Shown: positions 8,213 through 43,726 of the stretch, piece after piece
How the letters are laid out: the number at the start of each line of letters is the position of its first letter
How positions within the stretch are numbered: the stretch's first letter is position 1
Assembly: GCF_014201505.1 (NCBI RefSeq)
Contig: NZ_JACHEO010000003.1
Location: 1 to 64,000 of the forward strand
From: Desulfoprunum benzoelyticum
GTDB taxonomy: Bacteria > Desulfobacterota > Desulfobulbia > Desulfobulbales > Desulfocapsaceae
Direction: 5' to 3'
Length of the DNA stretch: 64,000 nt
The notes under the pieces: model-generated
What the model was told of the DNA's origin: nothing
What the model saw: only the letters and a program-made list of their open reading frames with translations
The model's database searches: none
Translations under genes and position numbers: made by a program

Positions 8213-9955
8213 ATGCCAGAAAAACAACTGCAACGGATTTCCAACACGATCTCCTTCCGGATCGCCCTGCCGGCGTTTCTGACCATTCTCCTCTTCGTCG
8301 TCGCCATCTTCTACGTCGTCCTGCCGCAGTTGGAGCAGAGCCTGCTGAATCGCAAGCAGGAGATGATCATGGAGTTGACGGAAACGACCTGGAGCCTGAT
8401 CGGCGATTACCATGAGCGGGAACTGCGCGGTGAACTGAGCCCCGACGAGGCGAAGCGGCGCGCCGTGCTGCGGATCGGCAAGCTGCGCTACGGCCCGGAA
8501 AAAAAAGATTATTTCTGGATCAACGACATGACCCCGCGGATGATCATGCACCCGTACCGCAGCGATCTCGACGGCAAGGATATCTCCGACTTCAGGGATC
8601 CTAAAGGCAAGCGCCTCTTTGTCGAATTTGTAAAGACCGTGGAAAAACAGGGCGCCGGCTACGTCGACTACATGTGGCAGTGGAAGGACGATTCGGACAA
8701 GATCGTCCCCAAGATCTCGTACGTCAAGGGCTACGAGCCCTGGGGGTGGATCGTCGGCACCGGGATGTACATCGATGACGTCAAGGCCGAGATCGCCGCG
8801 ATCCGCAACCATCTAGCCGCCGTTTCCGCCGGCATCCTGGTGATCATCTCCCTGCTCGCCCTCTACTCCATCCGCCAGAGCCTGCTGGCCGACCGCGAGC
8901 GGCAGCGGATCTTCGCCGAGCGGGGGGAATTGTTGAAGTCGCTGGAGCAGAGCACGGAGCGGTTCCGCAACCTGATCGAGACCACCAGCGACTGGATCTG
9001 GGAGATCGACCGCGACGGCCGCTGCACTTACTCCAGCCCGCGGGTCGAGAATCTGCTCGGCTTTGAGCCGGTGGAGATCCTCCACGCCTCGCTGACCACG
9101 TTCGCGCCGCCCGACCAGGCCGCCGAGGCCGGCGCCGCCTTCGCGAAACTGCTCGCCGCCGGCAAGCCCTTCACCGGCTTCGAGATCACCTCGCTGGGCA
9201 AGGACGGCCAGGTCGTCGTCCTCGAGTGCAACGCCGTGCCGATCTTCGATGAGCGGGGACAGCTGGCGGGTTACCGCGGGGTCGCCCGTGATATCACCGA
9301 GCGCAAGACGGCGATGGAGGTCCTGAAGAAGAGCCGCGACGATCTCCATGCCAGCCTCGAGGAGACGGTGGCCTCGCTGGCTTCGACCGCCGAAAAGCGC
9401 GACCCCTACACCGCCGGGCACCAGCAGCGGGTCGACCGCCTGGCCTGCGCCATCGCCCGGGAGATCGGCTACCCCGAGGACAAGATCGAGGGGCTCCACA
9501 TCGCGGCGCTGCTGCACGACATCGGCAAGATCACCCTGCCGTCGGAGTATCTCGCCAAGCCGACCCGGTTGTCGTCGGAGGAAAAGGCCCTGTTCAAACT
9601 CCATCCCGAGGTCGGCTACGAGATCCTCAAGCGGATCCAGTTCCCGTGGCCGGTGGCGGAGATCGTCCTCCAGCACCACGAGCACCTGGACGGCACGGGC
9701 TACCCGCAGGGGCTGAAGGATGACGAGATACTGCTCGAGGCCCAGATCCTCGCCGTCGCCGACGTGGTCGAGGCGATGTCGTCGCACCGCCCCTACCGGC
9801 CTTCGCTCGGCATCGACATCGCCCTCGACGAGATCCGCGCCGGACAGGGCATCCGCTATCATGCCGAAAGCGTCGATGCCTGTCTCAACCTGATCCTGGA
9901 AAAGCGATACGACCTGAGCTACACCATGGAGGAAGGCGGCGGCGGGGTCGGGTGA
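8213..9955 (+). CDS. Cache-PAS-HD-GYP sensor phosphodiesterase, copy A
   Basis: 580 residues. A transmembrane helix at about 17-40, then a single-cache (sCache_2/smp_2-like) periplasmic domain with the typical KKDYFWINDM and PWGWIVGTGMY motifs, a second membrane helix at about 195-213, a PAS domain at about 245-365 (RFRNLIETTSDWIWEIDRDG ... GVARDITERK) and a C-terminal HD-GYP domain at about 385-565 with LLHDIGKITLP and HHEHLDGTGYPQGL. Expected role: sense a small ligand outside the cell and adjust cyclic di-GMP. Almost identical to the gene at 10589-12331, the same length to the base, except in part of the cache domain. Bounded on both sides by repeat clusters. Confidence 0.93.
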   Translation: MPEKQLQRISNTISFRIALPAFLTILLFVVAIFYVVLPQLEQSLLNRKQEMIMELTETTWSLIGDYHERELRGELSPDEAKRRAVLRIGKLRYGPEKKDYFWINDMTPRMIMHPYRSDLDGKDISDFRDPKGKRLFVEFVKTVEKQGAGYVDYMWQWKDDSDKIVPKISYVKGYEPWGWIVGTGMYIDDVKAEIAAIRNHLAAVSAGILVIISLLALYSIRQSLLADRERQRIFAERGELLKSLEQSTERFRNLIETTSDWIWEIDRDGRCTYSSPRVENLLGFEPVEILHASLTTFAPPDQAAEAGAAFAKLLAAGKPFTGFEITSLGKDGQVVVLECNAVPIFDERGQLAGYRGVARDITERKTAMEVLKKSRDDLHASLEETVASLASTAEKRDPYTAGHQQRVDRLACAIAREIGYPEDKIEGLHIAALLHDIGKITLPSEYLAKPTRLSSEEKALFKLHPEVGYEILKRIQFPWPVAEIVLQHHEHLDGTGYPQGLKDDEILLEAQILAVADVVEAMSSHRPYRPSLGIDIALDEIRAGQGIRYHAESVDACLNLILEKRYDLSYTMEEGGGGVG

Positions 9956-10588: not shown

Positions 10589-12331
10589 ATGCCAGAAAAA
10601 CAACTGCAACGGATCTCCAGCACCATCTCCTTCCGGATCGCCCTGCCGACGTTTCTGACCATTCTCCTGTTCGTCATCACCATCTTCTCCATCGCCCTGC
10701 CGCAGTTGGAACAGAGCCTGCTCAATCGCAAGCAGGAGATGATCATGGAGTTGACCGAAACCGCCTGGAGCCTGCTCGAGGATTACCATGCCCGCGAACT
10801 GCGCGGCGAGCTGAGCCCCGACGAGGCGAAGCGGCGGGCTATTCTGCGGATCGGCAAGCTGCGCTACGGCCCGGGAAAAAAGGATTATTTCTGGATCAAC
10901 GACATGACCCCGGTGATGATCATGCACCCCTACCGGCCCGATATCGAGGGCAAGGATGTTGCCACCTTTGAAGATCCGAACCTGAAAAATATTTTAACCA
11001 AGATCGTCGAGGTGGTGCGGCAACAGGAGGCGGGATTTGTCGACTACGAGTGGCAGTGGAAGGACGAAACGCAGAGAATCGCGCCCAAGATCTCGTACGT
11101 CAAGGGCTACGAGCCCTGGGGCTGGGTCATCGGCACCGGGATGTACAGCGATGACGTCAAGGCCGAGATCGCCGCGATCCGCAACCACCTGGCCGCCGTC
11201 TCCGCCGGGATCCTGGTGATCATCTCCCTGCTCGCCCTCTACTCCATCCGCCAGAGCGTGCTGGCCGACCGCGAGCGGCAGCGGATCTTCGCCGAGCGTG
11301 GCAGGTTGATGAAGTCGCTGGAGATGAGCACGGAGCGGTTCCGCAACCTGATCGAGACCACCAGCGACTGGATCTGGGAGATCGACCGCGACGGCCGCTG
11401 CACCTACTCCAGCCCGCGGGTCGAAAACCTGCTCGGCTTCGAGCCGGAGGAGATCCTGCATGCCCCGCTGACCGCCTTCGCCGCGCCCGGCCAGGCCGCC
11501 GCGATCAACGCCGCCTTCACAAAACTGCTCGCCGCCGGCAAGCCCTTCAACGGCTTCGAGATCACCTCGCTGGGCAAGGACGGCCGGGTCGTCGTCCTCG
11601 AATGCAACGCCGTGCCGATCTTCGATGAGCGGGGACAGCTGGCGGGATACCGCGGGGTCGCCCGGGATATCACCGAGCGCAAGACGGCGATGGAGATCCT
11701 CAGAAAGAGCCGCGACGATCTCCATGCCAGCCTCGAAGAGACGGTGGCCTCGCTCGCCTCCGCCGCCGAAAAGCGCGATCCCTACACCGCCGGGCACCAG
11801 CAGCGGGTCGAGCGTCTGGCCTGCGCCATCGCCAGGGAGATCGGCTACCCCGAGGACAAGATCGAGGGGCTGCACATCGCGGCGCTGCTGCACGACATCG
11901 GCAAGATCACCCTGCCGTCGGAGTATCTCGCCAAGCCCACCCGGTTGTCGACGGAGGAAAAGGCCCTGTTCAAGCTCCACCCCGAGGTCGGCTACGACAT
12001 CCTCAAGCGGATCCACTTCCCCTGGCCGGTGGCGGAGATGGTCCTCCAGCACCACGAGCATCTCGACGGCACGGGCTACCCGCGGGGCCTGAAGGACGAC
12101 GAGATCCTGCTGGAGGCGAATATCCTCGCCGTCGCCGACGTGGTCGAGGCGATGTCGTCGCACCGCCCCTACCGGCCGTCGCTCGGCATCGACATCGCCC
12201 TCGACGAGATCCGTGCCGGGCGGGGCATCCGTTATCATGCCGCAAGCGTCGATGCCTGCATCGACCTGATCCTGGAAAAGGGATTCGACCTGAGCTACAC
12301 CAGGGACGAGGACGGGGGCGGGGTCGGGTGA
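10589..12331 (+). CDS. Cache-PAS-HD-GYP sensor phosphodiesterase, copy B
   Basis: 580 residues with the same order as copy A: membrane helix, cache domain, membrane helix, PAS, HD-GYP (LLHDIGKITLP, HHEHLDGTGYPRGL). Leader and start (GACCGCCATGCCAGAAAAAC) match copy A. The proteins differ mostly in the membrane-distal half of the cache domain: copy A has ISDFRDPKGKRLFVEFVKTV where copy B has VATFEDPNLKNILTKIVEVV. Output domains are nearly unchanged, so the duplicates probably differ in ligand or sensitivity but share c-di-GMP hydrolysis. The last 37 nt overlap the convergent AhpD-like gene. Confidence 0.93.
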   Translation: MPEKQLQRISSTISFRIALPTFLTILLFVITIFSIALPQLEQSLLNRKQEMIMELTETAWSLLEDYHARELRGELSPDEAKRRAILRIGKLRYGPGKKDYFWINDMTPVMIMHPYRPDIEGKDVATFEDPNLKNILTKIVEVVRQQEAGFVDYEWQWKDETQRIAPKISYVKGYEPWGWVIGTGMYSDDVKAEIAAIRNHLAAVSAGILVIISLLALYSIRQSVLADRERQRIFAERGRLMKSLEMSTERFRNLIETTSDWIWEIDRDGRCTYSSPRVENLLGFEPEEILHAPLTAFAAPGQAAAINAAFTKLLAAGKPFNGFEITSLGKDGRVVVLECNAVPIFDERGQLAGYRGVARDITERKTAMEILRKSRDDLHASLEETVASLASAAEKRDPYTAGHQQRVERLACAIAREIGYPEDKIEGLHIAALLHDIGKITLPSEYLAKPTRLSTEEKALFKLHPEVGYDILKRIHFPWPVAEMVLQHHEHLDGTGYPRGLKDDEILLEANILAVADVVEAMSSHRPYRPSLGIDIALDEIRAGRGIRYHAASVDACIDLILEKGFDLSYTRDEDGGGVG

Positions 12332-18639: not shown

Positions 18640-18725
18640 TCCCACTGCCTTCGTCGTTCCCGGCAGGGCAAACGCCATAATCCCGATCCCCACCGTCATT
18701 TCGAAGCGAAGCGAGAAATCTTTAT
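18640..18725. repeat. Dispersed palindromic repeat unit
   Basis: A forward copy of the dispersed unit, TCATTTCGAAGCGAAGCGAG followed by AAATCTTT, preceded by the companion segment GTTCCCGGCAGGGCAAACGC that also precedes copies at 171-240 and 440-510. It lies between the riboswitch locus and the dehydrogenase operon leader. No gene is seen from 18577 to 18815. Confidence 0.8.
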
Positions 18726-18815
18726 GTTCCCTCGCAGCCATGGCAAAGGAGCGCTCTCCCCTGCCGGTGGTGGCCAGGGGAGAGGGTTGAGGTCAGGCGC
18801 GCAGCGGCTACCCCC

Positions 18816-19004
18816 TTACCGGGCAACCGCCGGCGGCCGTCCGGCGACGGCGGCGGTGATCACCGCCGTTTTCCGGGGCACACCGGAACAGTTCGGGGCC
18901 GGTCTCCCCTGCCCCAGACACCGCCGCAGGATCAACTGGTAGGTGTCCCAATCCCTTGTGCTCAGTGCATTCTGCCGTGCAAAACTTAATTCTGCATTGC
19001 CCAT
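18816..19004 (-). CDS. Small ORF downstream of the cobalamin riboswitch
   Basis: 62 codons, unknown function. AAGGAGG lies at ideal spacing before the ATG at 19004, immediately after the riboswitch terminator, so it is the first possible target. The first 30 residues (MGNAELSFARQNALSTRDWD ...) look protein-like; the rest (PRKTAVITAAVAGRPPAVAR) is low in information and may be out-of-frame sequence after a truncation. It resembles none of the usual B12-regulated genes I can recognise (btuB, cbi/cob, cobalt transport). Either a novel small protein or the stump of a deleted gene. Confidence 0.45.
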   Translation of the reverse strand: MGNAELSFARQNALSTRDWDTYQLILRRCLGQGRPAPNCSGVPRKTAVITAAVAGRPPAVAR

Positions 19005-19038
19005 TACAGCCTCCTTGGAAAAGGTGCCGGCCCAGGAC

Positions 19039-19077
19039 AAAAAAAGCCCCCGGACCAATGAAAATTGATCTGGGGGC
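19039..19077 (-). terminator. Rho-independent terminator of the cobalamin riboswitch
   Basis: On the minus strand GCCCCCAGATCAAT, loop TTTC, then ATTGGTCCGGGGGC followed by seven T. It lies about 60 nt after the aptamer and 35 nt before the downstream ATG, the standard layout of a transcriptional off-switch. Confidence 0.85.
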
Positions 19078-19135
19078 CCTGATTTCTCCACAGATACGCC
19101 TCGACCATCCCTGATCCACGGGGATATGTCTTCCT

Positions 19136-19293
19136 GTTCAGGCAGGTCTTCTGACTTCCGGCTCATCCTACTCGTTGCGTCTTCCCGATCCAATGGATCA
19201 GTGACATGGGTGCAACGTTCGTCCCCGGTTACAGCGGCGGGCCCGTCTCCGATTCACACGGAGTTCCCTTTTCTTCCTTTACGGAACCTGAAC
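19136..19293 (-). ncRNA. Cobalamin (AdoCbl) riboswitch aptamer
   Basis: Read on the minus strand the region holds the conserved blocks of the cobalamin riboswitch in order: GTGTGAATCGGAGACGGGCC, CGCCGCTGTAACCGGGGACG, a B12-box-like GTCACTG, GGGAAGACGCAACGAGTAGG and GATGAGCCGGAAGTCAGAAG with ACCTGCC. GTTCAGG at the 5' end pairs perfectly with CCTGAAC at the 3' end as stem P1. These motifs are diagnostic for the family. A terminator follows, so cobalamin is expected to switch transcription off. The only downstream ORF is the 62-codon one. Confidence 0.95.
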
Positions 19294-19730
19294 GATACGA
19301 TTTGACCAGATAGCGGGCGGGAAAGCAAGGGATAACGGGTGTTGATGGTCGACTGCCCAAGATGGTCGATCGGGGCCGCGATGACTGCGGGAGATTTGCC
19401 TGTTTCGAAAGGTGTTCACCCCTATGTCCCCCGATTTCGAGCATCCCCCTGTCATATCGGGCGAAGCGAAAAACCTGGTTGTTCCCGGCAGGGCGGAGGC
19501 CATGGTCCCGCCCCCGCTGTCATATAAAGGAAAAAACTGAAAAACAAGATAAGTTGGGGTGGGGAGAAGAGACGAACTGTCAACGGCATACAGCCTCTCG
19601 AAATGCAAAAATCTCTTCTCACCCCGGCGCCTTTGAAGCCTCCTTCAACGGGTATGGCAATAAGTCCCCTTAACGAATATGAAACGGCAAAAGGCATCCC
19701 TTCGCTTATCTAACTAAAAGAGAATACTCA
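19294..19730. other. Intergenic, degenerate repeat remnants
   Basis: Promoter region of the riboswitch transcript (minus) and upstream flank of the IS110-type element. A degraded copy of the dispersed unit is visible around 19440-19530 (GTCATATCGGGCGAAGCGAA; GTTCCCGGCAGGGCGGAGGC). No supportable gene. Confidence 0.6.
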
Positions 19731-20761
19731 ATGAATTTCAAGAAAGTTTCTACTTGGCAGGAATTCACCAATTGTCCCGCGATTGGAGTCGATGTCTGCA
19801 AAAAGTACCTGGATCTCGTGGGGCTGTCCGGATCCACCAGCTTTTACAGGAGGATCGACAATACCGCCCAAGCCATCGGTGAATTTGCCAAAGCACTTGG
19901 TCAACAGGAATTTAAAGGCACAATATTGTGTGAAGCAACAAGTCACTATCATCTTGTTTTGGCCGTTATGTCCTGCGAGGCCGGACTGGATATCCGGGTT
20001 ATCAATCCTCTCATGTCGAGCAAGCACGCCAAAAGTGCTATTCGTAAAACCAAAACCGACAGGGTTGATGCCCATGTGCTGGCAACTATGGTCTTGACCG
20101 AGCCCAACCTGCCACCACCACTGAAGCTGAGCCGCAGTCATTGTCTGGTCCGCCATACCTTAGGCCTCATTCATTCTCAGGAACAGCATCTTCAAGGAAT
20201 CAAAAGGTCGCTCGACAGTTACCTGGAACGACTCAGCCAGTTGAACCTTGAGGCCGGTAATGCCTATAAACAGGCCGTTGAGGTGTTCAAGCAGTTTAAA
20301 GACTGTCATAAACACCTGCTGTCCGAATTGGAATCCTATCTGCTGGAAACCCAGCCGGAGCGACAGGAAGCGATTGAACGTGTCTGTGCAGTTCGGGCAT
20401 CACACGTCGTAACGCTGCGCTCTTCACCTTTGTTCTCGATCCTAAGGTATCCAGCGCAAAATCCTGGATAGCCTATGCGGGCCTGGATGTAGCGATCAAA
20501 GAAAGCGGCACTTGGCGCGGTCATGGCAAGATAACCAAACGCGGCCCTTCCTGGCTGAGAAAGAGGCTGTTCCAGTCTGCCTGGGGTACAACCATGGCGG
20601 ACTCCCAGGGGCGGCTCTATTACGATACCTTGAAGGCAAACGGACGCAAACATAAAGAAGCCCTGGTCATAATGGCCAAAAAACTGTTGAGCATTATGCA
20701 TGCACTCATCGTGCACCAAAAAACGTTCGATAATTCAAAGGCATTTCAAGTTACACCTTGA
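19731..20761 (+). pseudogene. IS110-family transposase, frameshifted
   Basis: The first 247 codons (19731-20471) give an N-terminal DEDD/RuvC-like domain with IGVDVCKKYLDL, ILCEATSHYH, INPLMSSKHAKSAIRKTKTD and RVDAHVLA, typical of IS110-type transposases. The C-terminal Transposase_20 part continues in the next frame (SAKSWIAYAGLDVAIKESG, HGKITKRGPSWLRKRLFQSA) to a stop at 20759-20761. At 20388-20395 the expected Val-Pro-Gly-Ile would need GTTCCGGGCATC but the sequence has GTTCGGGCATC, so a single missing C explains the shift. IS110 elements often lack inverted ends; none were found. Probably inactive. Confidence 0.87.
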
Positions 20762-20952: not shown

Positions 20953-21393
20953 TCATCGGACACTCGCTTTCCTTAATATTTCCACAATTTCTTCATGCCC
21001 TTTTTCTATTGCAATATCAAGCGGCAGTTGGCCTTTCTTTGTTTTCTTTATTACATTAGCACCATATAGAATCAAAGTTTTGACAATTTCCGTATGCCCA
21101 TAATATGCCGCCCAGAAAATAGCAGTGTTACCACCATCTTCCCGTGCGTTGACATCTGCATTTGCCTCCAATAAAATCTTCACCACATCCAAATAACCTC
21201 CACTTGCAGCTGCAGTCAGTGGTGTCCAACCATCAATAGCATACGCATCAACGTCAGCCCCACGCTGAATTAAAAAATTCACCTTGGACACATCACCAAT
21301 ACCAGCGGCAGAAACCAAATCCTTGTCGATTTCAGGAGTACATCCGCATGCATAAACAATAAAAAATACCCATATCAATATTTTATTTTGCAT
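20953..21393 (-). CDS. Ankyrin-repeat lipoprotein, candidate immunity protein for the adjacent RHS toxin
   Basis: 146 residues from the ATG at 21393, chosen because it yields a signal sequence with a lipobox-like ACGC at about 16-19; the longer frame runs back into the RHS gene. About three ankyrin repeats follow: DGWTPLTAAASGGYLDVVKI, GNTAIFWAAYYGHTEIVKTL and GQLPLDIAIEKGHEEIVEIL. The gene starts 10 nt after the RHS stop on the same strand and shares the AT-rich composition of the RHS tip. Ankyrin proteins are known immunity partners in several polymorphic-toxin systems; that role is inferred from position and matching composition, not from family membership. Confidence 0.85.
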   Translation of the reverse strand: MQNKILIWVFFIVYACGCTPEIDKDLVSAAGIGDVSKVNFLIQRGADVDAYAIDGWTPLTAAASGGYLDVVKILLEANADVNAREDGGNTAIFWAAYYGHTEIVKTLILYGANVIKKTKKGQLPLDIAIEKGHEEIVEILRKASVR

Positions 21394-21403
21394 ATTTCGT
21401 CTC

Positions 21404-24400
21404 TCAAGGATTAAAAGACCTGAAAATTTCTGAATTATGACTACGAAAAGGAATTGCAATGCTATGTGCTCCACCTTGAAGTTCCAAACTTTTTAGAGAT
21501 CGGATTATTGATGCTGGAAATGCAGTTATAGGCAATGAAATTCCTGGGATCAATGGGTCGCTAAGATCTACTCCACCAGCCCCAAGTGCACCACCAACAC
21601 GAGCCGCACAATTATCAGGAAATGCCTCAGTCTTCGTAGTTTTTCCTTTCATAAAATTTATAATTTTTTCCTCTTGAGCAGATGTTGTTGGTAAAATAAA
21701 TGCTAGTGATTCACGTCGCTTTGATTCTTTTTCGATGTACTCGGTGACACTGCTACCAGCATAATTCAAATTTTTTGCATTAGGATTATTTCCGGGGCTA
21801 TAAAGACCCGATCCAGTAGTTGCAATTGCTGTATGTCCAAATGGATTTCTAGGAGTAGGTCCATTTATGATTACCAAAGTTTCTAACCCATCAAAATCAA
21901 TAAAATTCACCGGGTCATTAGCAACATACCCATACAGATTACTATCCCCGCCGGCAAAATCAATCGGATCCTTGGCCGTCCACTTGCCGATCTCCGGCAG
22001 ATAGTCCCGAAAGCCGAAGCGGACCAGGCCGGTATCCCTGTCATACAGGCCGCCGGCGAAGCCGAAGGGGATGGTGAAACCGGGGTTGCTGTCGCTGAGG
22101 ATATTGCCGAAGGAATCGTAGTCGATCCGCTTGACGATCGCGCCGCCGCTGTCGACCACCAGCCGGAGTGAGCCGACCTGGTCATAGGCCAGATAGTAGG
22201 TTGCACCCCCCGTCGTCATGGCCAAGGGCATCCTGTCATCGGCATAATGAAAGCGCTGGCGGAGAGTGTCGTTGCCGTCGTAGACCGCCAGCAGGGTCGT
22301 CCGCCCCGACCACAGGTATTTCTCCACCGTGGCGCCGTTGACCTGCTTGGCGATCCTCCGCCCCAGCGGATCGTGGACATAGGCGATGACGGCGCCGTCG
22401 GGCCGGACAACCCGCAGCAACTCCCCGGCGGCGGAGTAGGTGTACCGCGTCGTCGCCCCGTCCTCGAACCGCGCCGCCAGATTGCCGTCCTCGTCAAACT
22501 GGTAGCTGACCGGGCCGGCGGTCAGGGTATGGTCGGCGATGGAGTGGCTGAAGGTCCGGCCGGCAATGCCCAGATCGGCGTTCATCTGGTAGCTGCGATT
22601 GCCGTTGCCGTCATAGCGGTACTCCTCCACCAGAATGCCGTCCCTGGTGACGGTCTGCAGCCGGCCGAGGGGGTCGTAGCCGTACTGGAACCGGCGGCTC
22701 GCCCCGGCCACGGTTTCGGTCCGGCTCTCGATCCGGCCGCCGTCATCGCGGGTGAGGTCGTAGCTGTAGACCGCACCTGCAACGTCAATGGCGCTGCCGT
22801 CGACCTCGCCGTAGTCGTTGAACCTTCGACTGAGAGTAAATGACGAATCGGTGACCTTTTCCGCCAGTCCGTTGCCGCTGTTGCGGCCGATAACGAAACC
22901 GCCGGAACCGGTCAGCAACCCGTCCTTGTCGTACTCCATTTTCTCGGTCGCGCCGCCGTAGGTCAGGGTGGCGAGCCGGAAGTCGTTGTTGTAGCTCAAC
23001 CCCAGGGCAGCGGCCAGGGTGCCGCTCTGGGAAACGCCGGTGACCAGGCTGCCGTCATAGCTGTAATCGATGACCTCCGTCCCCCGGGTGATGGTGTCGA
23101 CATTGGCGCCGCAGGCATAGCTATAGACGTTGACCCATTCGGGGGTGGCAGTTTTCGTCAACCGACCCGAGCTGTAGGTGTTGGTGATCGTCCGGGTCGA
23201 GGGCAGGGTCACCCGGGTCAGCTGCCGCTCCTCGTTGTAGGCATAGCCGGTGGCGCCGCCCAGCGGGGAGGTGAACGCGGCGCGGTTGTTGACCCGGTTG
23301 TAGCCGAAACCGTTATCGGCCGGATTCGGGGTCCGGTAGAGGGTCATATTGCCGTTGGCATCATAGGCGAACTGCAGGATGGTGCTGTCGGGTCGCACGA
23401 TCTTCTTCACCCGGCCGACCCCGTCGTATTCGGCGAACCTGGTCACCCGATCGAGCGGATCGGTGATGGTGGCGATATTGCCGCTGGAATCGTAGCTGTA
23501 ACTGGTTCGGCGGGCGCCGCTGGTGACCGCGACCAGCCGGCCGTCGCTGCGGTAGTCGTAGGTGGTGGCCAGCAGCCCGGGCACGGCGATGCTGCGGGGC
23601 TGCAGGGTGTCGGGATCGTAGGTGGTGGTGACGGTCCGGCCTTCGGCCGAGGTCACGGTGGTGGCAGCCTGGGCGATGTCGTGCCGGGCCGTGGCCGTGG
23701 TGCCGTTGACGGTCGTCGTCGTGGTGACCGCTTCGAGCCGGCCGTCGGCATCGGCATCGACATAGGCCCGGTCGATGGCGGTGACCCGGCTCAGCCCGGC
23801 CGGGGTGGTGGTTCTGGTGGAGCGCACCGCGGTATGGTCGAACCAGTAGTCGAGATCGCTGGAACTTTCCACCTTCGCCCCGCAACTGGAGGTGGTGGTC
23901 GAGTCAAGACCGTCGGCCGAGGTCGCGGTGGTGACAACCTCGCCGGAGGTGGCTGTGACCGTGCTGTCGACCGCGCCGGTCGACCGGGCCAGCCGCTTGA
24001 CGCTCGCGGAGGTGTTGGGGGTGGAGGTGGTGCTGGTGACCAGCCCCGCGGCGATCGCTTCCCGGGCAAATTGCCAGATCCCGCCCTCCTGGTTCGTCGT
24101 CCTGGAGACCCGGCCGGTATCGTCGAACAGGTGTTCGAAGCGGTTGCCGTTCGGTTCGACTTTCGCCGTCAGCAGGCCGTCGCTGTTGAGATATTCGAAG
24201 GTATAGCTGCTGCCGTCGGGAGTGGTCAGCGCCTCGAGCTGGTTCTGCTCGTCGATGACCAGTCCGGTCCGCAGACCATCGGCAGAAACTATCGCCGTCG
24301 CCACCCCGAGCGTTCTTTCGATTGTCACGCTCTTGCCGAACTGATCGGTGATGGTGCTGAGCCGGCCGTCGTCGTCGTAACCGAACTCGAGCAGCGCCAC

Positions 24401-27400
24401 CCCGGTCTCGAGGTCATAGGTGAGACGGTGCCGCCCTTCGGCCGAGATCAGGTACCCCAGGCCATTGCCTTCAGTGAAGTGGACTTCCTCCTGGCTGTAG
24501 CTCTTGACGGCGACCCGGCGGATGCGGCGGTTGCCGCGATCGGGGATGACGATACGTCCGCGGGCATCGAGGCTGAGCCGCTGCGGCTGCATCAGCAGGG
24601 CCCGGGTGGCGGCGCCGTCGTCGCCGGCCAGCCCCGGCTCACCCTTGCCGGCGACGGTCGAGATGTAGCCGTCGCTGCCCACCCTGCGGATGACGTCGCC
24701 GTTGCCGTAGTACTGGGAAAAATAGAAATTGCCCTGGTGGTCGAAGGCCATGCCGGCCGCCTGGGTGATCCGGGCCAGGGTTGCCGGTCCGCCGTCGCCG
24801 GAATAGCCGGAGGTACCGTTCCCCGCCACGGTGGTGATGTTGCCGCTGGGGTTGACCTTCCTGATCCTGGCGCCGTCGGCGATGTAGAGGTTGCCGTCAC
24901 GGTCGACGCTGACCGAGGTCGGGCCGCTGAGATAGGCCTGGTCGGCCGGACCGCCGTCGCCATTCGAGCCATGCACCTGGGGGTCGTACTGGTCGCCGGT
25001 TCCGGCCACCGTCCGGACGATACCGTCGGTGGCGATCCGCCGCACCCGGTAGCTGCTCTCGACGATCTCGCCGCCGCTGCACACCCCGGTGATCGGGTCG
25101 ACCTCGCCGCCGACACAGGACGTGGCTTCGGCGAAGTAGATGCTGCCAGCATCGTCGACGGCGATGCTCGACGGCATGATCCCGGCGGCCAGGGCCGGGC
25201 CGCCGTCACCGCTCGATTCCTGGCGGCCGTTGCCGGCGATGGTGGTGATGATGCCGTCGGCATCGATCCGGCGGATCCGGTTGCTCCCCATATCGGCGAC
25301 ATAGAGGTTGCCGCGGCCATCGAGGGCGAGATCGTTGGGGATGTGGAGGCGGGCCTCCCTGGCGGCGATGCCGTCCTCGTCGGCAGTGCCGTCGGGGCCG
25401 CCGGCGACGATCTCGATCGTTCCCGTTGGCGCGATCTTGAGGATCGCGGGATGGACCTGGTTGGCCACATAGATGTTGCCCGCCGGATCGATGACAGTGC
25501 TGACCGGGTTGCTGATCGGGGTCTCGCGCGCCACCGCCCCGGCGCTCGCCCAGCCCTCCTCGCCGTTGCCGGCGACGGTGGCGATGACCGGGGTAGCGTT
25601 GCGGATCACCGTGCCGTCGCCCTTGTGCAGTGTCGTCGGGTCGGTCGGGCTGAGCCTGTGGTGGGCTGAAATCGACCAGCCCTGGGCCAGGCCGTGGCCC
25701 TTCTCCGCCGGGTTGATCACCAGTTGACTGCGCCGCCAGTTGATGACCTCGTCCCGGGTCGGCACCGCTGTCGGCGTGGTGCCGAACCAGCCGAAGGCCA
25801 TCGCCAGATAACCGGAGTCCATATAGTACGAATCGTAGACATAGCCGATGTCGACCTCGGCGGTGACCTTGTGCAGGACCCGGTTGTTCAGCAGATCGCG
25901 GCCATCCCAGACGAACTCGGTCACCTGATTGGGAGACGGTTCCAGGGTTCTGGTGAGCTTACGGCCGGCGATATGGAGCTCGACCTCGATCCGTTTGACA
26001 CTGGCCGGGACCTCCGCCCCGCTGACCGGCACGGAGATGACCTGGCGGTAGCCGTCGGCCCGGTCACTGGCATAGGCGAGGCTCAGACCGGTGCCGGGAA
26101 TGGCGATATTCTCATAGTATATCTGACTCGCATCACCGACCGATGAGCCGGTGGCCGACTGCGGACAGTCGGGGCACAGTTGTTCCTGCAGGCTGGGAGG
26201 ATTGAAGCCGAGCATGTTCAACAGGCTGATCAGCGAGCACCAGTTGAAGTCCCAGGGGGAGAAATGGTCGACCTCGACCCGCCAGAATTCAGCCCCGGGC
26301 CGGTAAAATTGGGGATCGGCCAGGCCGAAGGCCTCGTCACGGAGATCGCCGTCACCGTCGATATCATCGGCCTGGCCATCGCCGTCGCGGTCGACCCCGT
26401 CGACTGCGCCGTCGCCGTCGCTATCGACCAGGGTCACGACCACGCCGTTGCGGGAGGGGACCCAGATCCCCCTGTCCCGGTCATAATAGCCGACCGGCAC
26501 CGCCGCCCCGACCTCGAAACCGAGAAAGTTGTCGACCCAGGTCACCACCGGCCTGTCGAATCGGACCCGGTCGGCGCCGTCGATCTCCAGTTCGGCGCAG
26601 TAGGTATAGGCCGAGGTCTTCGGCAACTCGGCCGGCATCGACGCCGAGGTGGGATACTCGGTGGCGCGGACGGTGAAATTCCTGAGCTCGCGCACGACCC
26701 GGCCGTCCTCATCGACGGCAAAGGCACGGTTGTCACCCTGGAACACCATCGTCAGCGCCCGCGAGCCGGAGTCATCGGTGACGAGTGAACTGCGATGGGT
26801 GGTGATCGTGGCGGGGTCGCCATCGAGGCGGACCGTGGTGGTCAGCCCATCCTGTTTCAGCAGTTGGACGGTCGGGGCTATGGCGATGTCGTTGACCGGG
26901 ACATAGAGCTGGCGCTGGAGCGGCAGGAAGCCGGCGCCGCCATAGTCGAGGGTGTAGGTGGCGCCGCCCTCGACCGGCAGCACGAATCGGCCGCCGGCGT
27001 CGGTGACCGCCGTGCCGTACTCGGGGTGGTGCAGGACGGTGACCGCCACGCCGGCGACGGGGGTGCCGGCGCGATTGTTGACCGCGCCGGTGGCCAGGGC
27101 GAACCGTGCCGGATCATAATTTTCTACCGTGGCATCGGTTGGGATGCTGGAATTGTACAGGGCGCCGAAGGATCCGGCCGGCTGGGGCGGCGGTTCGCCG
27201 GTGACCAGGACCCGGACCCGGGCGTTGGCCACCCCGCCCGGACTGACCGCGGTCAGGGTGTAGGTGGTCGAGTGATCGGGGGCGACCGTCACCGAGCCGT
27301 TGAGGGCGACGGCGCCGACACCGTTATCGATATGGACACCCTGGGCATCGGTCGTCGTCCAGGACAGGGTCGTCGCTTCGCCCTTGGCGACCGTCAGCGG

Positions 27401-30400
27401 CGCGGCGGAGAAGGCGATGGTGGGCTGAACGATAAATTCACTGACATAGACCGTGGCGGTGGCGGTGACGGTCCCGCCTCTGCCCGTGACCGTGAGGGTA
27501 TAAGTGGTGGTTTCCGCCGGGGCCACGGCCACCGCGCCGTTGACCGGCAGATAGCCGATGCCGTTGTCGATGGCGGCGTACCGGGCATCGGTGGTGGTCC
27601 ATTCCAGCCAGGTCGTCTGCCCCGGCCGTACCGCCTGGTCCCGGCTGGTGAACTGCAGCGTGGGCGGATGGTCGACAAACATCCCGACCTCGAAGTCGTG
27701 CTTGAGGTTGGCGCCTGCCATCGTGATCTGCCGACTCAGGGTGCGGCCGTCGGCCAGGCTGACCTCGATGGTATGGTCGCCGTCGGCCAGCGGCAGCGAG
27801 TAGCCGCCGGCCGCCGCCGAATAGGTCATGGCGCCGCTGGTGCGGTCGCGGACCAGGACCTGGCCCACCCCCTCGCCGCCATCGTAGACCTGATCGCCAT
27901 CGGCATCGGCGTAAACCACGCCCAGCAGGACATGACCGCCATCACCGTTGGCGCCGAAATTACAGGTGATCACCCCGCCGTAGGGGGCATCGGCCTGGAC
28001 GCTGTCGTGGAGATAGCCGATCCCGATTTCGCTCCACTCGGCGCCGAGGATGTTGAGGCGATGGCCGCGACCGGAATAGTCGGCGTCGACAAACAGATTG
28101 TCGTGCAGTTGCAGCGCGGTCCGGACGGGGTCCATGGGGTCGCTCGCGGTCACCGCGGCGATGTTTTCGCCGGTGCTCCCCACGTATCCGGCCGCCAGAC
28201 AACGGTCGGCCGGGGAACTGCCATCGCTGCCCTCGTGGGCGAAGTAGTGGTTGATGACCATATCTTCGCTGTGACCGCGGGCCGCCCGGGCCAAGGTGGC
28301 GTTGAAGGTCAACGGCGGCAGGGGCGCAGCGTCGATCACCGCCTCGGGCGGGCCCTCGTTGAGATCGATGCCCAGGCGGGCCGCCTCCGCCGCCGGGTTG
28401 GCCCGGGCCCGGTTGATGGCCTCGAGGTGGGCCTGCTCTTCCGCGCTCGGATCGCCGTAGGGATCGGCAACGACGACAATGACGCCGGCCCTGGCGATCT
28501 TGTCTGCATCACCCCGGGCGCTGATGATGTACTCGGTGGTGACGGCCGGGGATACTTGGGCTGTTCCCGTGCACTCGACCTCGCCCGGATCAGGTGTGAT
28601 GGCGGCGCTGAGACAGTTTTCACCGCTCCAGGTGAGGGTAACGGTGTCGCCGGCGGCTATCCGGCGCCGGTCGGCAGCGATGGCGACCGTCGGGATCGCC
28701 ATATAGAAAATGGTCACCGTGACTGCTTGTCGCCGGCCGTAACGGTCGACGGCCTCGACATCAAGGTTGTGTTCCCCCTCCGTCGCCAGCACGACCTCGG
28801 CGCTGAAGCCGGCCCCGAGCACCGTCGCCGGCTCGCCGTTGACGGTGACGGCGGCGCCCGTCGTCACCCGCCCACTGACCGCCACCGTCGGGGTTGCCGT
28901 CACCGCCCCGGCAACCGGGCTGTCAACTTGCAGCACCAGTTCCGGGTAGACCGTGATCTCGACGCTCTCCTCCACCGTCCCACCCGGGCCGGTGGCGCTC
29001 AGGGTGTAGGTGGTGGTGGCGGTCGGGGTCACCGCCATGGCGCCGGTGGTCGCGACCGTGCCGATGTCCGGGCTGATCGTAACCGTGTCGGCATTGGCGG
29101 TAGTCCAGCTCAACTCCGTCGGCTGCCCCGCCGGCACCGCCAATGGCGCCGCGGACAGGGTTGCCGTCGGCTGGGGCTGACTCACGGTGACGGTGACATT
29201 TTTCGCCACCGTCCCGCCCGGTCCGGTCGCGGTGGCGATATAGGTCGTGGTCTGGCCGGGACTGACGGCCAGCGAGCCCTCGGCCCCCACCGCGCCGATC
29301 CCCTGGTTGAACACCACCTGGTCGGCGTTGGTGCTGGCCCAGTTCAGCTGGGCCGAATCGCCGCCGGCGATGGCGGCGGGGACGGCATGGAGGCTCAGGA
29401 TCGGCGCCGGTTGCAGCACGGTGATGGTCCGGGCGGCGGTGGCGGCGCCGCCGGGGCCGGTGGCGGTGGCGGTGTAGATCGTCGTCGTTTCCGGGGCGAC
29501 GGTGGTGGAGCCGGAGACCGCCACCGCCCCAATGCCGGGCGCTATGGTCACGGCATCGGCGTAGCTGCTGTCCCAGCTGAGGGTAGTGGCGCTGCCGCGG
29601 AGGATGATGTTTTCCCCAGCCGTCAGCGTCATCGTCGGCGGCGGATTGGCGGGAATGACGGTGATGGTGACGCTGTCCCGGGCAACCCCGCCCGGTCCGG
29701 TCGAGGTCATCGTGTAGGTCGTGGTGACCGCCGGGGTCACCGTAATCTCGCCGCCCAGTTCGACCGCGCCGATATTCTGATCGATGACGCAACTGGTGGC
29801 ATTGGCATAGACCCAGGTCAACCGCACGCTTTCCCCCTCCTTGATCGTCGTCGCCGAGGCCTTGAGATCGGCGACCGGGGCGACGAATGACACCGCCACC
29901 TTGCGATAGGCGGTCCCGCCCGGCCCCACCATCTTGAGGCTGTAGGTCGTCGGCCGGGTCGGGGTGATCGTGATCGACCCGTTGCAATCGACCTCACCGA
30001 CATCCGGGGTGATGGCGCAGGAGGTGGCCCGGGTGCTCGACCAGGTCAGCGTCGTGCTGTCGCCGACCTTCAAGACGGCCGGATCGGCGGCCAGCGTCCC
30101 GGCGGGACCGATCGGGGCGATCGTGACGCTGCGACTCACCGGGCCCCGTTCGTTGGCGGCGGTGATCGTATAGGTGAGCGGCAGACTGGGCGGGGTCACG
30201 GTGAGATTGCCCTGGGCCGCCACCGTGCCGATCCCCTGGTTGATGACGACCGTGTCGGCGCAGCCGGCGCTCCAGCGCAGATCGACGCTGTCACCGGGAT
30301 CGATGGAATAGGTCGAGGCCGAGAATGAGACACCGGGGTAATTGGGATAGGCCACCGTCCGGCTGCGGATTCCGCCATCGCCGGTCGCCTCCAGCGTATA

Positions 30401-32782
30401 ACTGCCGGCCGTCGTCGGTGTTACCTGCTGGGAGCCGGCCAGCGGCACCTCGCCGATATCGGGGCTGATGACGGCACTGGTCGCGTTGCTGGTCGACCAC
30501 GTCAGAGTCAGCGGCTCACCGGGGGTCAGATTGCAGGTCGGAGAAATCGAAAAATTGATACTCGGCGGCGATGGCGGCGGCGGTTCGACGACATACACCG
30601 TTGCCGCATAATTTCTGCTCCCGGCGGCGTTGCCGACCTGCATATTGTACGTCGTTGTTGCTGTCGGGGTCAGGTTCTGCGAGCCGGCAGCGGTCACCGT
30701 CCCGATATCGTGATCGATGACCGCCTCGTTGGCGCAGGACGGCGTCCAGCGCAGCGTCGTGCTCTGCCCCTTGTACACCCGATTCGGCGAAAAATAAAAC
30801 GAGGCCGACGGCAACCCCGGCACCGTCCGTTTGGTCAAAGCGGCATCATTGAAGGCGGTGAGGGTATAGACCGTTGGTTCCGCCGGTGAAGGAATGGTCA
30901 AGGCACCGTTTTTCTCGACCACGCCGATGCCCGGCTCGATCAGGACGGTCGCGGCCAGCGTCGTGCTCCACTTCAGGGTGATGTCTCCGCCCGGGTTGGA
31001 GCCGGAACAGGGATCGACGCTGAACTGGGCGGTGGGTTGGGAATAGACGTAGATCGTGAAGCTCTGTACGGCTTCGCCGCAGCGGTCATCGGTGACCTTG
31101 ACCGCCACGTCATAGCGGCCGCTCTGCGCCCCCGACGGCCGCCACTGGACCAGTCCGGTCGCGGCGTCGATGGTCATCCCGGCCGGGGCCTTGTCGAGGG
31201 CGTAGACCAGGGGATCGTTATCCGGGTCGGTGGCCTGCACCTGGTAGGTATAAAGGCTATCCCAGTAGGCACGACCACCGGGAGAGGAGGTAATCACCGG
31301 GTAATCGATCTTGCCCGGCTCGGACTGATTCGACAACGCATGGACCGGGACGATCTCACCGGTTTCGCCGTTCAAGTCGAAGACGTGCCAGACATTGCCG
31401 TAGCCGCCCGGGACGGTGAAGATCAGCGGCTCATGGTTGCCGGCATAGACCTTGACCTGCGCCCCCGACAGCGACAGCCAGCGGCTGTTGGCGTAGCGGT
31501 TGGTGAAGTCGTGGACGTAATAGCGGTATGTTCCCGGAATTTTGTCGGTGATGGTGATCGTCTCGGGGCCGAAACCGTTGCGGTCATCGAGATCGAGACT
31601 GGCGGTCGGGATCGTCTTGTTGAAATAATAGCAGTGGTAGCGGCAGCCGACGTCATTGGGCTGGGTGAGATGGGCCTCGAGATCGGCCGGGCTCTGGTTC
31701 CAGGTCAGGACGATACGGATCTCATTGTCGGCGAGAACCGGCGACAGCACCAGGTCCTGATCCGCCAGATCCACACCTTCACCAAGGACGACAGTCTTGC
31801 TGTTGTCGATATAGCCCTGGTGCACGGCCGCGATCTGGTACGTTCCGGCGGCCAGTCCGGCAAAGAGGAAGGCCCCGCTTGCATCCGAGCGGGCAGTGGC
31901 GACGGCGGCGCCGGCAGTGCCGTTGTCTTCCGGGCGGAGGACGAGCTGAACATCACCGAGCCCGGCGCCGCTGACGGCGTCAATGACCTTGCCGGCAATT
32001 GAACTGTCTCCGGACGGCATCTCCCGGCACAGGCTGAGCTCGGCCGCGACCAGGTTGTTGAGTTCATCGATTTCTTCAATGTGCCCGACCCCGGAGCCGT
32101 CATCGTCGACCCGGGCAAAAATGGCGACATCCCCTGTCGGGGGATCGCTCCAGCGATAGACCACCGTCTCTGTTTCCGTCGGCAGCAGTTTTTCCGTAGT
32201 TTCGCTCCAGCCGATGAGTTGCCCGCCGTCTTCCGGATCGCCGTTGTACAACGCGACCCGGACCCCGGCCGGGATTTCGGCCTCTCCCTGGTTGGTAATG
32301 TCAACAGTGAGATCGATGGTTTGTGGACAGTTGGTTACATCCCCCGCCAGGTTGGCGGCCAGCAGGTCGTTCAGGGGATCGGCGACCGTCCGGATGATTT
32401 CGAGCGCGAGATAGGAGCCGGGTTTGCTTTCAAGTTCGACGCGGATCTCGTTATCGCCACTCAAGATCACCGGGGTCTCGAGAATATAGGTCTGGTGCTT
32501 GAAATCGTCATGGGTGAAGAGGACGACGCCATTGAGGCGAACGACGCCTGAAGTGACGCGATCGTCGGCATTTGATTTCTGTCCTTCGCGGCCATTGCGG
32601 ATGGTGAGCCGCGCCTCTCCCGGTTCGGCGGCGAAGGTATCCTGGTAGACATTGGGCGCCCCGGTGGTACGGAGGTATTTTTTCGGACCAAAGGCGCTGA
32701 TCTCACCGCCGGTCGCCGTCGAGGCGACGACAACACAGCTCACCAGCACCACCAGAGTACAAAGACGCAATACCAGAGCCAT
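21404..32782 (-). CDS. Giant exported RHS/YD-repeat protein with CAP, Ig-like and NHL domains and a C-terminal toxin-like tip
   Basis: 3792 residues; ATG preceded by GGAGGGG. Approximate order: signal peptide 1-26; CARDB-like and carboxypeptidase-regulatory-like domains about 135-345; a YfaP/DUF2135-like segment to about 480; a cadherin-like domain, then roughly a dozen Ig-like repeats (TTYTLTATGPGG pattern) about 585-1420; a CAP/SCP domain about 1444-1610 (EAINRARANPAAEAARLG, GHSEDMVINHYFAHEGSDG, STGENIAAV); two more Ig-like domains; an Asp-rich calcium-loop run (DSDGDGAVDGVDRDGDGQAD); NHL repeats about 2410-2740; YD repeats about 2750-3600; the RHS core ending GLVRFGFRDYLPEIGKWTAKDPID about 3600. 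The last roughly 165 residues, after NLYGYVANDP, are AT-rich and unrelated to the rest. They carry FGHTAIATTG and later DNCAARVG, a His-then-Cys order like permuted NlpC/P60 folds. Likely a surface or secreted polymorphic toxin. Confidence 0.9.
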   Translation of the reverse strand: MALVLRLCTLVVLVSCVVVASTATGGEISAFGPKKYLRTTGAPNVYQDTFAAEPGEARLTIRNGREGQKSNADDRVTSGVVRLNGVVLFTHDDFKHQTYILETPVILSGDNEIRVELESKPGSYLALEIIRTVADPLNDLLAANLAGDVTNCPQTIDLTVDITNQGEAEIPAGVRVALYNGDPEDGGQLIGWSETTEKLLPTETETVVYRWSDPPTGDVAIFARVDDDGSGVGHIEEIDELNNLVAAELSLCREMPSGDSSIAGKVIDAVSGAGLGDVQLVLRPEDNGTAGAAVATARSDASGAFLFAGLAAGTYQIAAVHQGYIDNSKTVVLGEGVDLADQDLVLSPVLADNEIRIVLTWNQSPADLEAHLTQPNDVGCRYHCYYFNKTIPTASLDLDDRNGFGPETITITDKIPGTYRYYVHDFTNRYANSRWLSLSGAQVKVYAGNHEPLIFTVPGGYGNVWHVFDLNGETGEIVPVHALSNQSEPGKIDYPVITSSPGGRAYWDSLYTYQVQATDPDNDPLVYALDKAPAGMTIDAATGLVQWRPSGAQSGRYDVAVKVTDDRCGEAVQSFTIYVYSQPTAQFSVDPCSGSNPGGDITLKWSTTLAATVLIEPGIGVVEKNGALTIPSPAEPTVYTLTAFNDAALTKRTVPGLPSASFYFSPNRVYKGQSTTLRWTPSCANEAVIDHDIGTVTAAGSQNLTPTATTTYNMQVGNAAGSRNYAATVYVVEPPPPSPPSINFSISPTCNLTPGEPLTLTWSTSNATSAVISPDIGEVPLAGSQQVTPTTAGSYTLEATGDGGIRSRTVAYPNYPGVSFSASTYSIDPGDSVDLRWSAGCADTVVINQGIGTVAAQGNLTVTPPSLPLTYTITAANERGPVSRSVTIAPIGPAGTLAADPAVLKVGDSTTLTWSSTRATSCAITPDVGEVDCNGSITITPTRPTTYSLKMVGPGGTAYRKVAVSFVAPVADLKASATTIKEGESVRLTWVYANATSCVIDQNIGAVELGGEITVTPAVTTTYTMTSTGPGGVARDSVTITVIPANPPPTMTLTAGENIILRGSATTLSWDSSYADAVTIAPGIGAVAVSGSTTVAPETTTIYTATATGPGGAATAARTITVLQPAPILSLHAVPAAIAGGDSAQLNWASTNADQVVFNQGIGAVGAEGSLAVSPGQTTTYIATATGPGGTVAKNVTVTVSQPQPTATLSAAPLAVPAGQPTELSWTTANADTVTISPDIGTVATTGAMAVTPTATTTYTLSATGPGGTVEESVEITVYPELVLQVDSPVAGAVTATPTVAVSGRVTTGAAVTVNGEPATVLGAGFSAEVVLATEGEHNLDVEAVDRYGRRQAVTVTIFYMAIPTVAIAADRRRIAAGDTVTLTWSGENCLSAAITPDPGEVECTGTAQVSPAVTTEYIISARGDADKIARAGVIVVVADPYGDPSAEEQAHLEAINRARANPAAEAARLGIDLNEGPPEAVIDAAPLPPLTFNATLARAARGHSEDMVINHYFAHEGSDGSSPADRCLAAGYVGSTGENIAAVTASDPMDPVRTALQLHDNLFVDADYSGRGHRLNILGAEWSEIGIGYLHDSVQADAPYGGVITCNFGANGDGGHVLLGVVYADADGDQVYDGGEGVGQVLVRDRTSGAMTYSAAAGGYSLPLADGDHTIEVSLADGRTLSRQITMAGANLKHDFEVGMFVDHPPTLQFTSRDQAVRPGQTTWLEWTTTDARYAAIDNGIGYLPVNGAVAVAPAETTTYTLTVTGRGGTVTATATVYVSEFIVQPTIAFSAAPLTVAKGEATTLSWTTTDAQGVHIDNGVGAVALNGSVTVAPDHSTTYTLTAVSPGGVANARVRVLVTGEPPPQPAGSFGALYNSSIPTDATVENYDPARFALATGAVNNRAGTPVAGVAVTVLHHPEYGTAVTDAGGRFVLPVEGGATYTLDYGGAGFLPLQRQLYVPVNDIAIAPTVQLLKQDGLTTTVRLDGDPATITTHRSSLVTDDSGSRALTMVFQGDNRAFAVDEDGRVVRELRNFTVRATEYPTSASMPAELPKTSAYTYCAELEIDGADRVRFDRPVVTWVDNFLGFEVGAAVPVGYYDRDRGIWVPSRNGVVVTLVDSDGDGAVDGVDRDGDGQADDIDGDGDLRDEAFGLADPQFYRPGAEFWRVEVDHFSPWDFNWCSLISLLNMLGFNPPSLQEQLCPDCPQSATGSSVGDASQIYYENIAIPGTGLSLAYASDRADGYRQVISVPVSGAEVPASVKRIEVELHIAGRKLTRTLEPSPNQVTEFVWDGRDLLNNRVLHKVTAEVDIGYVYDSYYMDSGYLAMAFGWFGTTPTAVPTRDEVINWRRSQLVINPAEKGHGLAQGWSISAHHRLSPTDPTTLHKGDGTVIRNATPVIATVAGNGEEGWASAGAVARETPISNPVSTVIDPAGNIYVANQVHPAILKIAPTGTIEIVAGGPDGTADEDGIAAREARLHIPNDLALDGRGNLYVADMGSNRIRRIDADGIITTIAGNGRQESSGDGGPALAAGIMPSSIAVDDAGSIYFAEATSCVGGEVDPITGVCSGGEIVESSYRVRRIATDGIVRTVAGTGDQYDPQVHGSNGDGGPADQAYLSGPTSVSVDRDGNLYIADGARIRKVNPSGNITTVAGNGTSGYSGDGGPATLARITQAAGMAFDHQGNFYFSQYYGNGDVIRRVGSDGYISTVAGKGEPGLAGDDGAATRALLMQPQRLSLDARGRIVIPDRGNRRIRRVAVKSYSQEEVHFTEGNGLGYLISAEGRHRLTYDLETGVALLEFGYDDDGRLSTITDQFGKSVTIERTLGVATAIVSADGLRTGLVIDEQNQLEALTTPDGSSYTFEYLNSDGLLTAKVEPNGNRFEHLFDDTGRVSRTTNQEGGIWQFAREAIAAGLVTSTTSTPNTSASVKRLARSTGAVDSTVTATSGEVVTTATSADGLDSTTTSSCGAKVESSSDLDYWFDHTAVRSTRTTTPAGLSRVTAIDRAYVDADADGRLEAVTTTTTVNGTTATARHDIAQAATTVTSAEGRTVTTTYDPDTLQPRSIAVPGLLATTYDYRSDGRLVAVTSGARRTSYSYDSSGNIATITDPLDRVTRFAEYDGVGRVKKIVRPDSTILQFAYDANGNMTLYRTPNPADNGFGYNRVNNRAAFTSPLGGATGYAYNEERQLTRVTLPSTRTITNTYSSGRLTKTATPEWVNVYSYACGANVDTITRGTEVIDYSYDGSLVTGVSQSGTLAAALGLSYNNDFRLATLTYGGATEKMEYDKDGLLTGSGGFVIGRNSGNGLAEKVTDSSFTLSRRFNDYGEVDGSAIDVAGAVYSYDLTRDDGGRIESRTETVAGASRRFQYGYDPLGRLQTVTRDGILVEEYRYDGNGNRSYQMNADLGIAGRTFSHSIADHTLTAGPVSYQFDEDGNLAARFEDGATTRYTYSAAGELLRVVRPDGAVIAYVHDPLGRRIAKQVNGATVEKYLWSGRTTLLAVYDGNDTLRQRFHYADDRMPLAMTTGGATYYLAYDQVGSLRLVVDSGGAIVKRIDYDSFGNILSDSNPGFTIPFGFAGGLYDRDTGLVRFGFRDYLPEIGKWTAKDPIDFAGGDSNLYGYVANDPVNFIDFDGLETLVIINGPTPRNPFGHTAIATTGSGLYSPGNNPNAKNLNYAGSSVTEYIEKESKRRESLAFILPTTSAQEEKIINFMKGKTTKTEAFPDNCAARVGGALGAGGVDLSDPLIPGISLPITAFPASIIRSLKSLELQGGAHSIAIPFRSHNSEIFRSFNP

Positions 32783-43584: not shown

Positions 43585-43726
43585 TCAACAATACAGTTCC
43601 AACCTAACCGATTTTTGCTAAAGACTCAACGCCTTATCCGCCGAACCATCAAGCGCGTCGTCCCTCCTTCGTGTTTCGGGGCCTGTGCCCAGGCGCCGCT
43701 GTCGATTGGTTAACCGGGAGGTGGCC

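Follow-up and report, generated by a model that had tools for sequence, protein, structure and literature searches.

What does a cobalamin riboswitch control when no familiar gene lies behind it? Few RNA switches have been studied as thoroughly as the cobalamin riboswitches, which as a rule control named B12 genes. The window, by which the whole analysed stretch of 64,000 nucleotides from Desulfoprunum benzoelyticum is meant (contig NZ_JACHEO010000003.1, positions 1 to 64,000), carries on its minus strand such a riboswitch, a terminator and a 62-codon ORF. A sequence-only reading of this locus had left two possibilities, either a new small B12-regulated protein or an orphan switch whose original target was deleted. 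The features on which the analysis is based are the following.

19124..19306 (-): complete cobalamin riboswitch aptamer (RF00174 covariance model, 121.7 bits)
about 19039..19080 (-): intrinsic terminator, a GC-rich hairpin with a T-run, between the aptamer and the Shine-Dalgarno sequence
19010..19016 (-): Shine-Dalgarno sequence AAGGAGG, 5 nt before the ATG at 19004, read from the sequence
18816..19004 (-): 62-codon ORF encoding the small protein (sequence and profile searches)
18912..19004 (-): conserved core, residues 1-31, predicted to form a helical hairpin of H3-15 and H19-30 (profile matches over residues 1-31, codon test, AlphaFold2)
18819..18911 (-): variable, basic and probably disordered C-terminal tail (no conservation among relatives, pLDDT 51-57)

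The switch and its surroundings

The riboswitch matched the full RF00174 model (positions 1-189) far above the cut-off of 31.5 bits, and its end was placed at 19306, the previously given 19293 being slightly short. By its sequence it is an ordinary member of RF00174, for which binding of adenosylcobalamin and repression are predicted. The terminator was not listed by a generic promoter/terminator pattern scan of the window; the RNA fold of a 72-nt stretch containing it gave -29.6 kcal/mol with z = -3.0, and of 60 related loci most have an equivalent terminator before the peptide. A good Shine-Dalgarno sequence was found in nearly all relatives of the ORF. The description of an intact aptamer and terminator on the minus strand, followed by AAGGAGG and a 62-codon ORF, was thus borne out. 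A search of the source genome revealed four further cobalamin riboswitches, located before two intact CbiK genes (L001, L002), a ThiC-family gene (L004) and a gene of the glycosyl/phosphoribosyl-transferase family 3 (L005). Since these four precede ordinary genes, only the switch in the window resembles an orphan.

Several other features of the window were recorded. Imperfect dispersed repeats at 18653-18731 and 19461-19515 (38 nt at 79% and 26 nt at 81% identity) lie about 0.8 kb apart on either side of the riboswitch-ORF unit, and a fragment of an IS110-family transposase, probably a remnant (246 aa against a 343-position profile), is found beside the riboswitch at 19731-20471 (+). Further away, an ORF of 3792 residues with YD/RHS-type repeats in its translation occupies 21404-32782 (-), and after it comes an ORF with ankyrin repeats (20953-21474). 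At 8213-9955 and 10589-12331 (+), two PAS/HD-type sensory proteins of 580 aa each are encoded next to each other; they match the same profiles and appear to be duplicates. The product of 43685-45820 (+) is a protein of 711 aa that has a Prim-Pol domain at its N-terminus and may stem from a mobile element.

The short ORF as a member of a protein family

No match to the window ORF was obtained in Pfam, NCBIfam or PHROGs, the CbiK domain PF06180 was not found in it by Pfam, and a profile search of PDB sequences returned chance matches only. In contrast, a protein search of 58 relatives revealed similar short ORFs in many of them, with a best E value of 2.7e-10 and with the similarity confined mainly to residues 1-40. 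They share, within the first 31 residues or so, the motif M-x3-E-x4-[KR]-x7-DWD-x-[FY]Q-x2-[MIL]R, of which the window ORF carries E5, R10, D18-W19-D20, Y22, Q23, L26 and R27. Judged from these sequences, the first ~31 residues of the window ORF define a new small-protein family. No description of it was found in the domain libraries or in the literature searched, which lay mostly outside subscription journals. The earlier statement that the ORF has no B12-related similarity therefore stands for the domain libraries; it does not hold for the first 30 residues, relatives of which are fused elsewhere to the CbiK cobaltochelatase.

A profile of 32 positions detected the family in 110 of the 258 genomes of the order Desulfobulbales, and an improved profile in 117 (75 of the 149 good-quality genomes), nearly always as a single copy per genome. 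In about 385 genomes from elsewhere in the phylum, the first profile gave no match and the second only two weak partial ones (L142 and L143, E 0.006-0.01), which were not counted. Carriers in a public genome collection, searched with a tighter alignment than the full divergent one, were Desulfofustis, Desulfopila, Desulfosediminicola, Desulfobulbaceae and Desulfocapsaceae; Desulfofustis glycolicus DSM 9705 is one of them. One candidate from Patescibacteria (L136) was rejected as a chance match, having no riboswitch and lying inside a longer nucleoside-kinase-like frame. About half of the Desulfobulbales genomes have no detectable copy, although 250 of the 258 carry cobalamin riboswitches, so that B12 control as such does not depend on the small protein.

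The codons of the core appear to have evolved as those of a protein, and on this sequence evidence ORFs of the window type are real genes. Over 27 aligned codons of 61 sequences, pN was lower than pS in 1829 of 1830 pairs, with means of 0.35 and 0.79, respectively, whereas in the two shifted frames of the same codons the ratio was reversed (pS 0.39-0.41, pN 0.45). D20 and Q23 are invariant and E5, W19 and R27 nearly so, while position 10 is nearly always K and otherwise R. At the nucleotide level, the riboswitch and, as a rule, the core were highly similar within the groups compared, and in most groups identity was reduced beyond the stop codon; this drop was most clearly missing in the pair L087/L089, and in group f4 the ungapped comparison of the core is unreliable because the peptides start at slightly different points.

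AlphaFold2, run with 16 sequences, predicted helices at residues 3-15 and 19-30, a block with pLDDT 83-88, and a tail of low confidence; the model as a whole had a mean pLDDT of 68.7 and a pTM of 0.40. The core is accordingly modelled as a two-helix hairpin. A Foldseek search of the PDB with this hairpin returned generic helical hairpins only, none of them significant (E >= 3.8).

Genomic contexts and alternative explanations

The family is tied closely to its switch. In a first scan of 20 loci, the window's included, 19 had a co-oriented RF00174 match immediately before the ORF. The exception was the spurious locus L025 (G003), which was rejected as a weak match lacking a riboswitch and missed by the profiles. 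Direct upstream linkage on the same strand held for 61 of 63 family loci scanned. Of the two loci with no covariance match, L080/G254, when read by eye, proved to contain the motifs typical of the riboswitch together with a long insert, and L111/G055 lies on a contig that begins 71 bases before the ATG, so that the terminator alone is kept. Even several of the weakest profile matches (G197, G223, G224, G225, G112) have a riboswitch just upstream. This constant linkage, together with the conserved family and the selection at the protein level, speaks well for the suggestion that the ORF encodes a new small B12-regulated protein.

Three contexts were distinguished. In the tree set, 42 of 60 loci were stand-alone, and in 21 of these 42 the next predicted gene was on the opposite strand; the neighbours of stand-alone copies include FeoB, a SerB-like phosphatase and an aminotransferase. 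In the operon context the peptide is the first cistron before a TonB-dependent (BtuB-like) receptor, ExbB/ExbD, TonB, a periplasmic binding protein and a FecCD permease, and in five loci (L101, L102, L104, L105, L109) its frame overlaps the BtuB-like gene by 4 nt. In six genomes (L064, L081, L082, L085, L096, L097) the peptide is located N-terminally to CbiK in one frame, ahead of an apparent signal peptide; PF06180 was confirmed on two of the fusions, and the others were assigned by a shared BLAST cluster. For hand-chosen pairs, pN/pS was 0.23 in the stand-alone set with a convergent next gene, 0.21 in the btuB-coupled set and 0.33 in the CbiK-fused set. A tree of the riboswitch and core nucleotides, a quick one with no support values and with gene calls that are simple longest-ORF picks, mixed the contexts, with the CbiK fusions nested among stand-alone forms and the window copy grouping with Desulfofustis-like stand-alone copies. 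At one locus (L108, G249, 1267-3316) there are three cobalamin riboswitches on the same strand, located before the peptide, a frame of 389 residues that gave no match in Pfam, and a CbiK-cluster gene; peptide and next gene are thus each preceded by a separate riboswitch.

Two further arrangements were seen among the relatives. A TPP riboswitch lies divergently beside the cobalamin riboswitch of a CbiK-fused member (L008, 763-1210). In L065, L083 and L084, from two genera, a class II ribonucleotide reductase gene is co-oriented 0.5-0.9 kb downstream of the peptide; this adjacency was rejected as a functional clue, not being seen outside these three loci.

The strongest rival explanation, unlikely in our estimate, is that the peptide is a cis-acting leader which tunes the next gene, btuB or cbiK, by coupling or by termination-reinitiation, and that the stand-alone copies either no longer have a partner or have one elsewhere in the genome. 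The 4-nt stop/start overlaps with the BtuB-like gene and the in-frame fusions to CbiK would fit such a role, and there is a precedent behind a B12 riboswitch, uPPE2 of Mycobacterium tuberculosis (PMC11260477). Two of the three contexts also count against action in trans, since the peptide there stands, like a leader, before a larger B12 gene or is fused to it. However, for no fewer than twelve conserved copies the following gene is convergent, which leaves nothing downstream in cis, and yet pN/pS for such copies is 0.23. In the window, the short ORF neither abuts nor overlaps the next gene in the manner of uPPE2; its stop codon is separated by 358 nt from the next co-oriented gene, which is not a B12 gene. 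Since many stand-alone copies with nothing behind them in cis are still under selection, action in trans is likelier than that of a pure leader.

Transcription could also read through the ORF into the acetate-CoA ligase and pyruvate dehydrogenase genes (18457 down to 13422), these being the real target. They lie on the same strand at the distance just given, and no terminator was found between the ORF and them, but this neighbour was not found in the relatives examined, where the downstream genes vary widely between genomes, and the explanation is improbable. Similarly small is the chance that the transcript is chiefly a regulatory or antisense RNA under riboswitch control, with the peptide secondary to it. 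Antisense-acting riboswitches are known (PMC9943018) and many copies do face a convergent gene, but these genes differ (feoB, serB-like, aminotransferase) and no conserved antisense target was found among the genomes compared; moreover, conservation drops past the stop codon in most groups and selection acts at the level of amino acids.

The deletion or truncation of an original B12 target, with the ORF left as a meaningless frame or a remnant of cbiK, has very little probability: the fusions to CbiK in six genomes and the dispersed repeats flanking the locus could be taken in its favour, but it is contradicted by the codon test. Further points against it are the conservation of the riboswitch-peptide unit across the order, mainly with a stand-alone ORF, the grouping of the window ORF with such forms, the lack of any CbiK remnant seen downstream of it and the presence of intact CbiK genes after two further riboswitches in this genome. 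Longer homologues of the first 30 residues, which the sequence-only reading had proposed to look for, do exist as CbiK fusions, but they are a minority nested among stand-alone forms under purifying selection. Therefore the window ORF, in which PF06180 is absent, is not a truncated cbiK, and the suspicion that it was a truncated copy of a common B12 gene was not upheld.

Proposed role and relation to known systems

We favour the explanation, with a probability of about 0.6, that the intact switch targets the small ORF and that the protein is made when adenosylcobalamin is low and acts in trans on corrinoid or cobalt acquisition. Cobalamin riboswitches that work through a terminator usually allow expression of the downstream gene when adenosylcobalamin is scarce, and the terminator architecture suggests the same direction here. 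With adenosylcobalamin bound, the terminator would stop transcription; with adenosylcobalamin scarce, the mRNA would extend and a protein of 30-65 residues (62 in the window) would be made. This protein may then act in trans by binding to a protein that takes part in acquiring corrinoids or cobalt, which would raise uptake or cobalt insertion when B12 is low. A role in acquisition is suggested by the fusion to CbiK and the coupling to btuB operons, and the cytoplasm is the likely site of action, as the hairpin precedes the apparent signal peptide in the fusions. A more specific version, that the stand-alone hairpin of about 30 residues is a dedicated, order-wide output of cobalamin riboswitches and a trans-acting post-translational regulator of corrinoid or cobalt acquisition, is put forward tentatively, at a little under even odds.

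If true, the output of a riboswitch would here be a small effector protein in place of an enzyme or transporter. That many genera retain a switch for a single tiny protein would suggest that a participant in B12 or cobalt homeostasis has so far been overlooked, and the CbiK fusions together with the btuB coupling provide a direct list of candidate partners. Apparent orphan riboswitches would deserve a search for very short downstream ORFs.

Among known systems, the cbiK and btu switches of the delta-proteobacteria belong to the same riboswitch family. The B12-element survey of this group names cbiK and transport targets (PMC545781). Genes of the CbiK and BtuB types are what such switches usually control, and CbiK is also a target elsewhere in the source genome. 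Here, in contrast, a small-protein gene is added as the first target or is the sole one, and no mention of it was found in the passages of the survey consulted. The antisense-acting cobalamin riboswitches (PMC9943018) are alike in having no conventional metabolic gene behind the switch, whereas here there is a protein product under selection and no conserved antisense target. Also comparable are the uORFs of Mycobacterium tuberculosis, which are translated behind B12 riboswitches and act in cis on metE or ppe2 (PMC11260477). They share with the present family a short ORF under a B12 riboswitch, and the 4-nt overlap of uPPE2 and PPE2 also occurs in some relatives here. In contrast to these uORFs, the peptide described here has no known relation to them, is conserved across an order and is often the sole gene behind its switch.
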